Shown here one piece after another: positions 9,097-40,791 of a DNA stretch of 41,932 nucleotides. The notes under the pieces were generated by a model. That model saw only the letters and a program-made list of their open reading frames with translations. It did not search any database and was not told the origin of the DNA. How positions within the stretch are numbered: position 1 is the first letter of the stretch; each line of letters starts with the position of its first letter. The stretch is from a virus. The stretch lies in the IMG/VR virus record IMGVR_UViG_3300025120_000149, positions 1 to 41,932 of that record. One strand, written 5' to 3'. The position numbers and the translations under genes are program-made.

Positions 9097-9872
9097 GCAC
9101 AGGTAAATATAAAGTTTATCACATACTAGGTAAGAAGATAGGCTGCACAACTAATTTACAAAAACGAGTTGTAGAAGAACAGGGTTTTAAACCTGGTGAA
9201 TATGAAATATTATTTGAAACAAATGATATTAAGGAAGCTGCTGATGCAGAAAGACAATTACAAAAAGATTTAGGTTATAAAGTTGATATAAAACCATATG
9301 ATAAATTATTTAAAAAACCTATGAGTAAACAAGTAAACGTAACAGATCAAACAACTACATTTGCTGTATCTAAAGATGAAATTGATGGTAGTTTTTTAGG
9401 TGACTTGCAATGGGAAACACCTTATGGTACTATTGATATAAACGCTACAGATAAAATAGAGTGGATTATAGATAATGCTAAAACTTCTATGTTTAATGCT
9501 AATCGTTGCTATGTGTACAATAAGGCAATGCATGAAGCTAGTCCTTTTCAAAAACATAAAGAAAAATTATATTCTCATCAAGATCAATTTCAATTAATTA
9601 GAGAGTGGGCAAAAGAAAGAGGTTTATATAACAAGGGTAATGCTACTACACAGTATGTTAAGCTTCAAGAAGAAGCTGGTGAGCTTGCTAAAGCTTTGTT
9701 AAAAAATGATCAGCCTGAAGTTATAGATGCTATAGGTGATATGGTTGTTGTATTAACTAACTTAGCTTATATGAGAGGCGTAAATATAGAAAACTGTATA
9801 AGCTCTGCTTATGATGTTATATCTAAACGTAAAGGTAAAATGATTAATGGAACATTTGTAAAAGATGCGTGA
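9078..9872 (+). CDS. GIY-YIG-like / MazG-like NTP pyrophosphohydrolase fusion
   Basis: Two-part protein of 264 residues. The C-terminal part (about 185-255) has the all-alpha MazG metal site: LQEEAGELAKALL (Glu198, Glu199, Glu202) and EVIDAIGD (Glu214, Asp217, Asp221), so it probably hydrolyses nucleoside triphosphates to monophosphates. The N-terminal part (about 10-70) resembles a GIY-YIG nuclease core: KVY (12-14), KIGCTTNL with KIG at 20-22, Arg30, and Glu58 in AADAERQLQ. The family tripeptides are degenerate, so activity is doubtful. A linker of about 100 residues joins them. It lies beside a second MazG-like gene and the thyA and nrd genes, suggesting dNTP pool control. Confidence 0.7.
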   Translation: MGVQSISTGKYKVYHILGKKIGCTTNLQKRVVEEQGFKPGEYEILFETNDIKEAADAERQLQKDLGYKVDIKPYDKLFKKPMSKQVNVTDQTTTFAVSKDEIDGSFLGDLQWETPYGTIDINATDKIEWIIDNAKTSMFNANRCYVYNKAMHEASPFQKHKEKLYSHQDQFQLIREWAKERGLYNKGNATTQYVKLQEEAGELAKALLKNDQPEVIDAIGDMVVVLTNLAYMRGVNIENCISSAYDVISKRKGKMINGTFVKDA

Positions 9873-11279: not shown

Positions 11280-12248
11280 ATGGGATTATTTAATGAAAGA
11301 GTTGCATACAAACCGTTTGATTATCCAGAATACTATACTGAGGGATGGCTTAAACAAGCTCAAGCGTTCTGGCTTCATACCGAGATACCGATGTCAGGTG
11401 ATATCAAGGATTGGAACGAAAAGCTTACCAAAGCAGAGAAGAACCTGGTTGGAAATATACTTTTGGGATTTGCGCAAACAGAGTGTGCGGTATCTGATTA
11501 TTGGACGCAAAAAGTTGTATCGTGGTTTCCTAAGCATGAAATAAAACAAATGGCCATGATGTTTGGTAGTCAAGAAACTATACATGCTGTTGCTTATAGT
11601 TATCTTAATGAAACATTAGGCTTAGAAGATTTTGAAGCTTTTTTACAAGATGAAGCTACAATGGAACGTTTTAATAATTTAGTTAGCTATGAAGGAACTA
11701 GTAAAATTGGTATTGCAAAATCGTTGGCTATTTTTAGCGCTTTTGCTGAAGGAGTTAGTTTATATTCTGCTTTTGCTGTGTTATATAGCTTCCAATTAAG
11801 AAACCTTTTAAAAGGTATTGGTCAACAAATGAAATGGTCTGTTCGTGACGAATCATTGCACAGTAAAATGGGTTGTCAGTTGTTTAGACATATGTGCCAA
11901 GAAGATAATAAGTTATTAGAAGATTGTAAAAAAGATGTTATAGATGCAGCAGAAGCAATGCTTAAAGCAGAAGAGCGGTACATTGATAAAATGTTCGAAC
12001 AAGGGGATATTGAAAACCTTAAAGCCAACGATCTTAAACAGTTCATTAGAAAAAGACTTAATGAAAAGCTCGTTGAGCTCGGTTACAAACACCTCGGGAA
12101 ATACTTTAAATATGATGGTACCGGAGCAAGCAGACTCGATTGGTTTTACCATCTCACTGGGGGTCACACTCATACTGACTTTTTTGCTGTACGTCCCACC
12201 GATTATTCCAAAGCAAATGAGGGAGAAGATTTTGAAGATATTTGGTAA
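11280..12248 (+). CDS. nrdB: Class I ribonucleotide reductase small subunit (NrdB)
   Basis: Houses the metal centre and radical that start ribonucleotide reduction by NrdA. By spacing against E. coli NrdB, the ligands are Glu99 and His102 (QETIH), Glu157 (EGVSLY), and Glu191 and His194 (RDESLH), with the radical tyrosine Tyr106 (ETIHAVAY). The first ligand position, Asp in E. coli, falls on Glu68 (QTECAVSDYW). This substitution occurs in some class I subgroups with other metals, so the cofactor is uncertain. Its 322 residues are normal. The C-terminus is acidic (NEGEDFEDIW), as expected for the NrdA-binding tail. Sequence at about 11950-12220 is GC-richer with CTC/CTT leucine codons. Confidence 0.94.
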   Translation: MGLFNERVAYKPFDYPEYYTEGWLKQAQAFWLHTEIPMSGDIKDWNEKLTKAEKNLVGNILLGFAQTECAVSDYWTQKVVSWFPKHEIKQMAMMFGSQETIHAVAYSYLNETLGLEDFEAFLQDEATMERFNNLVSYEGTSKIGIAKSLAIFSAFAEGVSLYSAFAVLYSFQLRNLLKGIGQQMKWSVRDESLHSKMGCQLFRHMCQEDNKLLEDCKKDVIDAAEAMLKAEERYIDKMFEQGDIENLKANDLKQFIRKRLNEKLVELGYKHLGKYFKYDGTGASRLDWFYHLTGGHTHTDFFAVRPTDYSKANEGEDFEDIW

Positions 12249-12400
12249 TGAGGAAAGTATGGAGGATTTGGGCAAAAGCTTTAGGAGAAAAATCTAAAGA
12301 AAATGCTGATGGTGTAGCTTTTGTAAGAACACTTTTAATACTTCAAGCTGTTATAACTAATATATTAATAGCATTAAACATAATACTAAATTGGATATGA
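12248..12400 (+). CDS. Small single-span membrane protein (50 aa)
   Basis: ATG shares one base with the nrdB stop (TAATG). Residues 1-22 are basic and amphipathic; residues about 26-48 form one hydrophobic segment (FVRTLLILQAVITNILIALN). A one-helix membrane protein with a positive N-terminus is likely. It lies next to another small membrane protein inside the nrd cluster. Function unknown. Confidence 0.6.
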   Translation: MRKVWRIWAKALGEKSKENADGVAFVRTLLILQAVITNILIALNIILNWI

Positions 12401-12660
12401 AACATAGTTTTTTAAAATTACTAGTTAAAGACAGGAGAATAAGCGCTAAAGAAAGATTAGCTCATAGGCTAGGATATATGGGAACTGCTTTTATAATGAT
12501 AGGTCCTTACATATTAAGCTCAGGCAACATAGGACCTATAGTTTATATAATAGGTGGTTTTATATCATTGCCTCAAGTCTGGTTAGCTAAACAATGGAAT
12601 TTAGTTGCTGTTAATTTAAATGTTATGATTGGATATACTATATACTTATACAGTGGCTAA
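12397..12660 (+). CDS. Small membrane protein with two to three spans (87 aa)
   Basis: ATGA overlap with the preceding gene. After a basic N-terminus (KLLVKDRRISAKERLAHRLG) come hydrophobic segments at about residues 29-42 (TAFIMIGPYIL), 45-58 (IGPIVYIIGGFISL) and 69-85 (VAVNLNVMIGYTIYLY). It probably sits in the host inner membrane. The placement between nrdB and nrdA with no gaps suggests expression in the middle period, not with the lysis genes. Not recognised. Confidence 0.65.
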   Translation: MKHSFLKLLVKDRRISAKERLAHRLGYMGTAFIMIGPYILSSGNIGPIVYIIGGFISLPQVWLAKQWNLVAVNLNVMIGYTIYLYSG

Positions 12661-12790
12661 AGATATTATAAAATGTAGTCAATGTGATGCCACTTTCCCG
12701 GGTGGTTATGAGTACAGAATGCACTGGGAAAAAATGCATTTACAAGATGCTTTAAAACAAGTTAAAGAAAATAATAATGTGGAACAATGA
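12653..12790 (+). CDS. C2H2 zinc-finger microprotein, GTG start (45 aa)
   Basis: A GTG-initiated frame overlaps the membrane protein by 8 bases and nrdA by 14, exactly the overlap sizes used elsewhere in this operon. Residues 8-11 are CSQC; after 12 residues (DATFPGGYEYRM) comes His, then WEKM, then His. This is C-x2-C-x12-H-x4-H, the classical C2H2 zinc-finger spacing, followed by a helix (LQDALKQVKENN). It may bind DNA or a protein partner. No ATG is available before the CxxC, so a non-ATG start is needed. Confidence 0.65.
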   Translation: MAKDIIKCSQCDATFPGGYEYRMHWEKMHLQDALKQVKENNNVEQ

Positions 12791-39987: not shown

Positions 39988-40232
39988 TATTTGATTCTAT
40001 TTTCAACACCTAAAAAAGTTTTAGATTCTTTATTACTAGATTTTTTATCAGATAGCTCTTCAATTTTTTCTATAATTTTTAACGAATCTTCTATTGCAAC
40101 CCATTTAGCTTGTGCTGCAGTTTTTGCTTTTTCAGGATCTAGTTCAGATAAATCAATATTTTGTTTAATAACTTTTTCAAGTTCAACCAGTGCTTTTTCA
40201 GCGGCTTGTATTATTCTTTTCCTTCGATCCAT
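39987..40232 (-). CDS. Candidate small terminase subunit (81 aa)
   Basis: A wholly helical, charged protein (RIIQAAEKALVELEKVIKQN and KWVAIEDSLKIIEKIEELSD), likely a coiled-coil oligomer. It sits directly before terL and overlaps it by one base (TAATG), where a small terminase is expected. No helix-turn-helix is clear at the N-terminus apart from a basic MDRRKR. At 81 residues it is shorter than usual small terminases (about 100-180), so it could be another accessory protein. Confidence 0.5.
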   Translation of the reverse strand: MDRRKRIIQAAEKALVELEKVIKQNIDLSELDPEKAKTAAQAKWVAIEDSLKIIEKIEELSDKKSSNKESKTFLGVENRIK

Positions 40233-40791
40233 AATTTATTGTAACTTGATTAGATAATATTCTGTATAATTTTTTGCCTTCTATTTCAAACTCATATTCG
40301 GAGTCAGGTGTAAAGCCCACCACATCTCCTAAGGCTATCCCTAATTCTTCCAATTCACTATTGCTATACATAAGCTTACCTTTTAATTTTTCTTCATCCT
40401 CAGCGTGCCATTTTTTATTAGCATATATAGGCTCAACAAAGCAATATTCATTAGGACAATGCCAACTATTGTTTCTATTAAAAGCAAATATCTGATCTGG
40501 TGCAACAAAAAATTCATTTTCTTTTAAAAAATTTGAACTATTTTTTTCTTTGCCACGTATGTCAAACCATCTTCTAAATACATTATGATGAACAATTACA
40601 TCATCTCCTTCACGGGGTGTTTTACTAGTAACTCCATAAGCTGGTTCACTTAATACTTTACCAATTCTATTGACAAATATATAGTCTCTTTCTGTAATTT
40701 CTGTATTTAATATTAATTCTTTTGTATCAACATTTACTTTATTGTTGTACCGTGATTTAGTAGATATAATATAATTGAATAATGATTTCAT
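40198..40791 (-). CDS. GroES-like (Hsp10-type) candidate protein (197 aa)
   Basis: Beta-rich protein. Residues ~42-75 (RIGKVLSEPAYG then REGDDVIVHHNVFR) and ~150-185 (LGDVVGFTPDSEYEFEIEGK, followed by LYRILSNQVTI) resemble the two ends of a GroES barrel: a VGDxV turn and a final strand pair after an E-x-x-x-x-G-x-x-x-x-I pattern. T4 uses a GroES analogue (gp31) to fold its capsid protein. Here it precedes the packaging and capsid genes, which fits. No mobile-loop GroEL-binding tripeptide is obvious. The C-terminus overlaps the next gene by 35 bases. Could be an unrelated beta-barrel. Confidence 0.45.
   Translation of the reverse strand: MKSLFNYIISTKSRYNNKVNVDTKELILNTEITERDYIFVNRIGKVLSEPAYGVTSKTPREGDDVIVHHNVFRRWFDIRGKEKNSSNFLKENEFFVAPDQIFAFNRNNSWHCPNEYCFVEPIYANKKWHAEDEEKLKGKLMYSNSELEELGIALGDVVGFTPDSEYEFEIEGKKLYRILSNQVTINYGSKEKNNTSR

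Follow-up and report, generated by a model that had tools for sequence, protein, structure and literature searches.

A conserved single-finger C2H2 gene of 45 codons in uncultured phages, with homologues on flavobacterial chromosomes

Results

A small zinc-finger frame between nrdB and nrdA

The window analysed here is the whole stretch of 41,932 nucleotides that makes up positions 1 to 41,932 of IMG/VR virus record IMGVR_UViG_3300025120_000149. Between the genes for the two chains of ribonucleotide reductase it contains a short frame encoding a single C2H2 zinc finger. The features of this region are the following.

11280-12248, + strand: nrdB, for the small chain of ribonucleotide reductase (listed as a neighbour only)
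12397-12660, + strand: upstream hydrophobic ORF of 87 aa, a membrane protein by eye, its 3' end overlapping the finger gene by 8 bases
12653-12790, + strand: gene for a 45-aa protein with a single C2H2 zinc finger, starting at GTG and ending with TGA at 12788-12790 (supported by frame, relatives, selection and fold)
12674-12739, + strand: the finger itself, Cys8 to His29, with ligands Cys8, Cys11, His24 and His29
12740-12787, + strand: C-terminal tail, varying among relatives, with residues 30-43 predicted to form a second helix
12777-14519, + strand: nrdA, for the large chain of ribonucleotide reductase, sharing 14 bases with the finger gene (likewise only a neighbour)

When translated, 12653-12790 yields VAKDIIKCSQCDATFPGGYEYRMHWEKMHLQDALKQVKENNNVEQ followed by a stop. 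The exact C-x2-C-x12-H-x4-H pattern claimed for this frame by the first-pass annotation is present in the product as C8-x2-C11-x12-H24-x4-H29, and the putative finger presumably binds zinc. Classical fingers follow a fuller consensus, hydrophobic-x-C-x2-C-x3-F-x5-hydrophobic-x2-H. The window finger also fits this consensus, with Tyr21 at the usual Leu position. In dinucleotide shuffles of the whole window, a frame at least 40 aa long between stops that carries C-x2-C-x12-H-x3-5-H arose in 6/300 cases and the fuller consensus in 0/300; the real window has one such C2H2 frame of at least 40 aa, that of 12653-12790. The overlaps of 8 and 14 bases, which had been described as typical of the operon, were found as described, and the same sizes recur upstream at 9865/9872 (8), 10915/10922 (8) and 11060/11073 (14).

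GTG 12653 is likely to be the start, mainly because of the start codons present in relatives. The frame is open upstream as far as a TTG at 12629, which is possible too. Within nine codons upstream of Ile6, the 85 viral contigs described below offered ATG without GTG in 46 cases, both in 18, GTG without ATG in 17 (including the window), TTG only in 3 and none in 1 (L097), and all 12 chromosomal copies have an ATG in this range. No clear ribosome-binding sequence was seen by eye upstream of GTG 12653.

The frame is conserved and under selection

Relatives were gathered in two sets: the best 80 related viral loci obtained with NrdA as bait, and the best 80 of 112 viral stretches confirmed in a family-alignment search. 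The finger frame was found in at least 84 viral contigs besides the window and in 12 Bacteroidota genomes, mostly marine judging by their record names. After removal of repeats, 85 viral contigs were retained, window included, some of which are near copies and therefore not independent lineages. Left out of the counts were L086 (the window again), 11 loci repeating a contig, and cores with N or X.

The first-pass annotation had proposed that stops or loss of the Cys and His residues be sought in relatives. This check did not refute the gene: all four ligands were kept in 108/108 loci as C-x2-C-x12-H-x3-4-H, with x4 in 83 and x3 in 25, and the 12-residue spacer from the second Cys to the first His was present in every one of the 108. 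The 21-residue core also fits 108/108 loci, the core pattern itself requiring R, W and E. The retrieval of loci biases this result in part: the search patterns contained IKCSQC or YRxHWE, which builds in conservation of one or the other. Six further genomes found by profile only kept the four ligands and R/W/E, and one of them has K7 changed to I.

Mean pairwise difference over 65 distinct 21-codon cores was 0.178, 0.143 and 0.441 at codon positions 1, 2 and 3. Of 2080 possible pairs, 544 were kept (0.05<dS<1.5; pairs beyond this range or not computable were left out); their median dN/dS was 0.15, and 541 of them had values below 1. The same held for the 16 sequences from the nrd site, where dN/dS was below 1 in all 56 pairs kept out of 120. 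The window and 86 loci had profile scores of either at least 76.6 bits or at most 10.6 bits and, given this gap, no half-decayed copies of the finger were seen. By these sequence comparisons the frame is a real and strongly conserved gene, in keeping with the original description of a small, GTG-started C2H2 zinc-finger gene of 45 aa.

The gene occupies several sites in phage genomes

The finger frame was seen in 10/80 related nrdA loci (the best 80, several of the fetched stretches being short upstream of nrdA). Finger-less nrdA contigs of at least 35 kb, which may be fragments, were searched throughout; 0/45 carry the finger, while a carrier control was recovered. Automatic site labels, taken from three genes on each side, placed the finger beside GroES/terminase (TerL) in 57 of the 85 viral contigs, in the nrd cluster in 20, at ligase/sigma in 2 and elsewhere in 6, these being counts of contigs and not of independent lineages. 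The gene had been regarded as a member of the nrd cluster; as a functional assignment this is not supported, given its presence at 10/80 nrdA loci, its absence from the 45 long contigs and the 57/85 copies beside GroES/terminase.

In 5 of 14 finger-less loci (L007, L008, L010, L013 and L018, by eye) the upstream ORF directly abuts nrdA, and in the other nine a different sequence lies between the two; in the window this junction is occupied by the finger gene. On the family tree, the branches with good support require the nrd label to change four times or more. One finger copy was found in each of 16/16 chosen carrier records (9 nrd, 4 GroES/TerL, 2 ligase/sigma and 1 other; 20-68 kb, perhaps fragments). 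From the single copy per record and the varied sites we infer that this is a mobile accessory gene, the product of which would act in trans.

Chromosomal copies in flavobacteria

Each of the 12 bacterial genomes carries one finger copy. The finger is present in 14/22 genomes of one flavobacterial genus (completeness not stated) and in 2/4 genomes of another. Wider draws gave 4/397 genomes for the family and 3/149 in a second family draw that shares genomes with the first, L182 being counted in both, and 1/395 for the phylum, the single hit being the centre genome itself. Judged by these draws, the finger family looks rare in cells outside the main genus. A weak match in genome G104 (L182, E 1.3e-4) was dropped, as it has no C2H2 frame under 150 aa.

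At locus L171 the finger lies among genes for a HAD hydrolase, a sodium symporter, an oxidoreductase and a myo-inositol oxygenase, an order that by eye is found again, in full or in part, in L169, L170, L174 and L178; the neighbours differ in L175, L176 and L177. None of the inspected neighbours of chromosomal copies was an nrd gene. A tree addressing the relative age of host and phage copies (48 columns) left 27/61 inner branches open and does not set the direction of transfer.

An ORF of 80-82 aa with a YYxCxEC motif adjoins the chromosomal finger at L171 (6155-6397, - strand) and stands in the same place in L168, L173, L174 and L178. The L171 copy had no Pfam match.

Known families and predicted fold

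The gene had been called hidden, which proved partly right: the window protein falls below every Pfam and NCBIfam cut-off, but two likely viral relatives are already present in a public structure library, one of them named as a C2H2 protein. Pfam zf-C2H2_4 scored 20.2 bits against the window protein, short of its cut-off of 27, and gave matches at E <= 0.1 to 14/14 members, the best with E 1.4e-4 (no comparison to the cut-off); DUF629 matched 5/14 members (best E 5.5e-4). No convincing match was obtained with PHROG (best phrog_5602, of unknown function, E 0.0039; 6/14 members at E <= 1) or NCBIfam (best E 0.019; 3/30 members). Searched against 50,697 phage records, the 45-aa protein gave chance-level matches only (best E 9), as did two relatives used as queries (best E 0.9 and 3). 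In the open-licence literature the family was not reported in any title or abstract opening found.

The two relatives in the structure library (BFVD) are A0A516LWY6 (48 aa, 61% identity over 36 columns, E 0.0042) and A0A7S9SU55, a C2H2-type domain-containing protein of Virus NIOZ-UU157 (47 aa, 56% over 32 columns, E 0.067). Known here from their structure-library rows alone, both have a predicted fold similar to that of the window protein and are probably members of the family. This is an unnamed family of known fold, some probable members of which have already been annotated automatically as C2H2 proteins.

AlphaFold2 (30 members) predicted a finger and a second helix with mean pLDDT 88.4 and pTM 0.59. 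The model is a beta-beta-alpha unit with two 2-residue strands and a helix at 18-28, followed by a helix at 30-43. Single-finger NMR entries 5znf, 1klr and 7znf aligned with Z 3.5-3.9 and rmsd 1.4-1.9 over 30 residues, and the best VIA-align Z was 5.0, which may reflect no more than a shared arrangement. Foldseek returned 0 matches at E <= 0.001 against either the PDB or BFVD; close geometry without significance may be expected for a protein of 45 residues. The Foldseek and VIA-align rows for the model were mostly DNA-binding fingers. A sequence search of solved structures gave nothing significant, the best hit being ribosomal eL43 (E 0.097).

To our knowledge the nearest studied parallels are AFV1p06 and Ros/MucR, and each differs in a defining feature. 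The family resembles classical C2H2 proteins (zf-C2H2_4 / zf-C2H2) in spacing, in aromatic and hydrophobic core and in predicted hairpin-helix fold, and shows the C-x2-4-C-x12-H-x3-5-H pattern with its core residues. It departs from them in that the window protein has one finger only, variable base-reading positions and, in the model, an extra C-terminal helix. AFV1p06, from the archaeal virus AFV1, is likewise viral, small (59 aa; PMC7230728) and single-fingered. PMC3541406 describes it as a classical-type finger with extensions that binds zinc and duplex DNA, with a glutamate as fourth ligand and an added third strand. By that description it differs from the family, where the fourth ligand is His in 108/108 loci, and from the predicted window model, in which the strand after the helix is absent and a helix is added. 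Ros/MucR proteins share a bacterial C2H2 zinc site; Ros, as given in PMC9779718, has a 9-residue spacer, against 12 in 108/108 loci here, and its domain, built from three strands and two helices, is 58 residues long, against 45 aa for the whole window protein.

Interpretation

Protein or nucleic acid as partner

Classical fingers read bases with helix positions -1, 2, 3 and 6. In 50 distinct cores these positions had a mean entropy of 1.89 bits (helix numbering of classical fingers) and held mostly small, aromatic, acidic or aliphatic residues, and positions 5, 8 and 9 (R22, W25 and E26) had zero entropy. Net charge was -1 for the window protein, with group medians of +1 to +2 and an overall range of -4 to +8. 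Because of the variable base-reading positions, the fixed R22/W25/E26 and the low charge, we lean towards a protein partner rather than sequence-specific DNA, with nucleic-acid binding close behind. DNA binding is possible, but the helix does not resemble a base-reading one. In the model, the invariant Arg, Trp and Glu may do no more than contact the second helix as packing residues.

We tentatively favour the following explanation, which we hold to be possible rather than established. A C2H2 finger some 45 residues long and stabilised by zinc would be translated from an accessory gene that rides in any operon that receives it, here between the hydrophobic-protein ORF and nrdA, overlapping both. 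Its product would act in trans within the infected cell, docking onto a host or phage protein, most likely through the invariant Arg22-Trp25-Glu26 side of the helix, and would serve there as a small adaptor or inhibitor. We infer both the action in trans and the preference for protein over DNA. Since the gene is found at several phage sites and on flavobacterial chromosomes, it probably acts on the host and not on neighbouring enzyme genes. A role as host effector is plausible and is the one we would favour. The chromosomal homologues also suggest that the target, or the process concerned, is one that some hosts control with this same finger.

The solved structures resembled by the model, largely DNA-binding fingers, count against this explanation, as do the charge of up to +8 and the Lys/Arg-rich tails of several relatives, which fit nucleic-acid binding. 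An alternative that we regard as doubtful but serious is that finger and charged tail form a weakly specific DNA- or RNA-binding regulator that tunes phage or host transcription. Classical C2H2 spacing and the finger model speak for it, and such a role has been proposed for AFV1p06, itself a single-finger viral protein binding zinc and duplex DNA (PMC3541406). The residues at the base-reading positions and the charge of -1 in the window protein argue the other way. A lone finger is seldom enough for nucleic-acid binding without basic flanks.

Exchange, counter-defence and the nrd cluster

Fingers of the classical type with a 12-residue spacer are typical of eukaryotes. It is conceivable, though rather unlikely, that a finger of eukaryote type has been exchanged between marine flavobacteria and phages, at one copy per genome, with the phage form acting in trans as a mimic of or replacement for a host regulator. 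A narrower idea appears improbable, namely that the protein serves in counter-defence or takeover by mimicking the host's own finger and displacing it from its partner. The gene is indeed accessory and small, with one copy per record, a variable position and a chromosomal homologue in candidate hosts. However, PADLOC anti-phage-defence models gave no convincing match (best E 0.0071, 1/30 members), and the tree leaves the direction of transfer unset.

We think it very unlikely that the protein is specific to nrd, as a small factor co-translated with NrdA that would partner ribonucleotide reductase. Its place in the window, where it is flanked by nrdB and nrdA and overlaps the ORF on either side, and the 20/85 contigs with an nrd-cluster finger would agree with such a role, but the finger was seen at only 10 of 80 related nrdA loci and nowhere on the 45 long finger-less contigs, most viral copies sit beside GroES/terminase, and the inspected chromosomal neighbourhoods were free of nrd genes. 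That the frame is a chance one and untranslated, as its shortness, GTG start and want of a clear ribosome-binding sequence by eye might suggest, can be practically dismissed in view of dN/dS, the third-position excess, the ligands kept in 108/108 loci and the shuffles (6/300 and 0/300).

For uncultured phages, the gene provides a defined candidate for host interaction that is open to testing. As a stand-alone, selected C2H2 family in bacteria and phages, it also offers a minimal system for what one finger can do.

Neighbouring genes

Some observations concern the genes around the finger. A 50-aa ORF (12248-12400, + strand) matching phrog_1679 (unknown function, E 2.7e-15) lies between nrdB and the hydrophobic ORF. 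In L007 (700-1080), L010 (3637-3993), L024, L037, L046, L049 and L068 the hydrophobic ORF starts with a CxxC...CxxC stretch, for example CNICKKKKK...CMRCEFRWK, which the window copy at 12397-12660 is without; the L010 form had no Pfam match.

The window itself has a GroES-like co-chaperonin gene near the terminase (40198-40791, - strand; phrog_13932, E 3.3e-21), and this GroES-like/terminase neighbourhood is where 57 other contigs carry the finger gene. At L163 a 154-aa ORF (2108-2572), by eye 2-oxoglutarate/Fe oxygenase-like, separates the GroES-like gene from the finger gene, and this extra ORF suggests that the GroES-like/finger junction may be an insertion hotspot.
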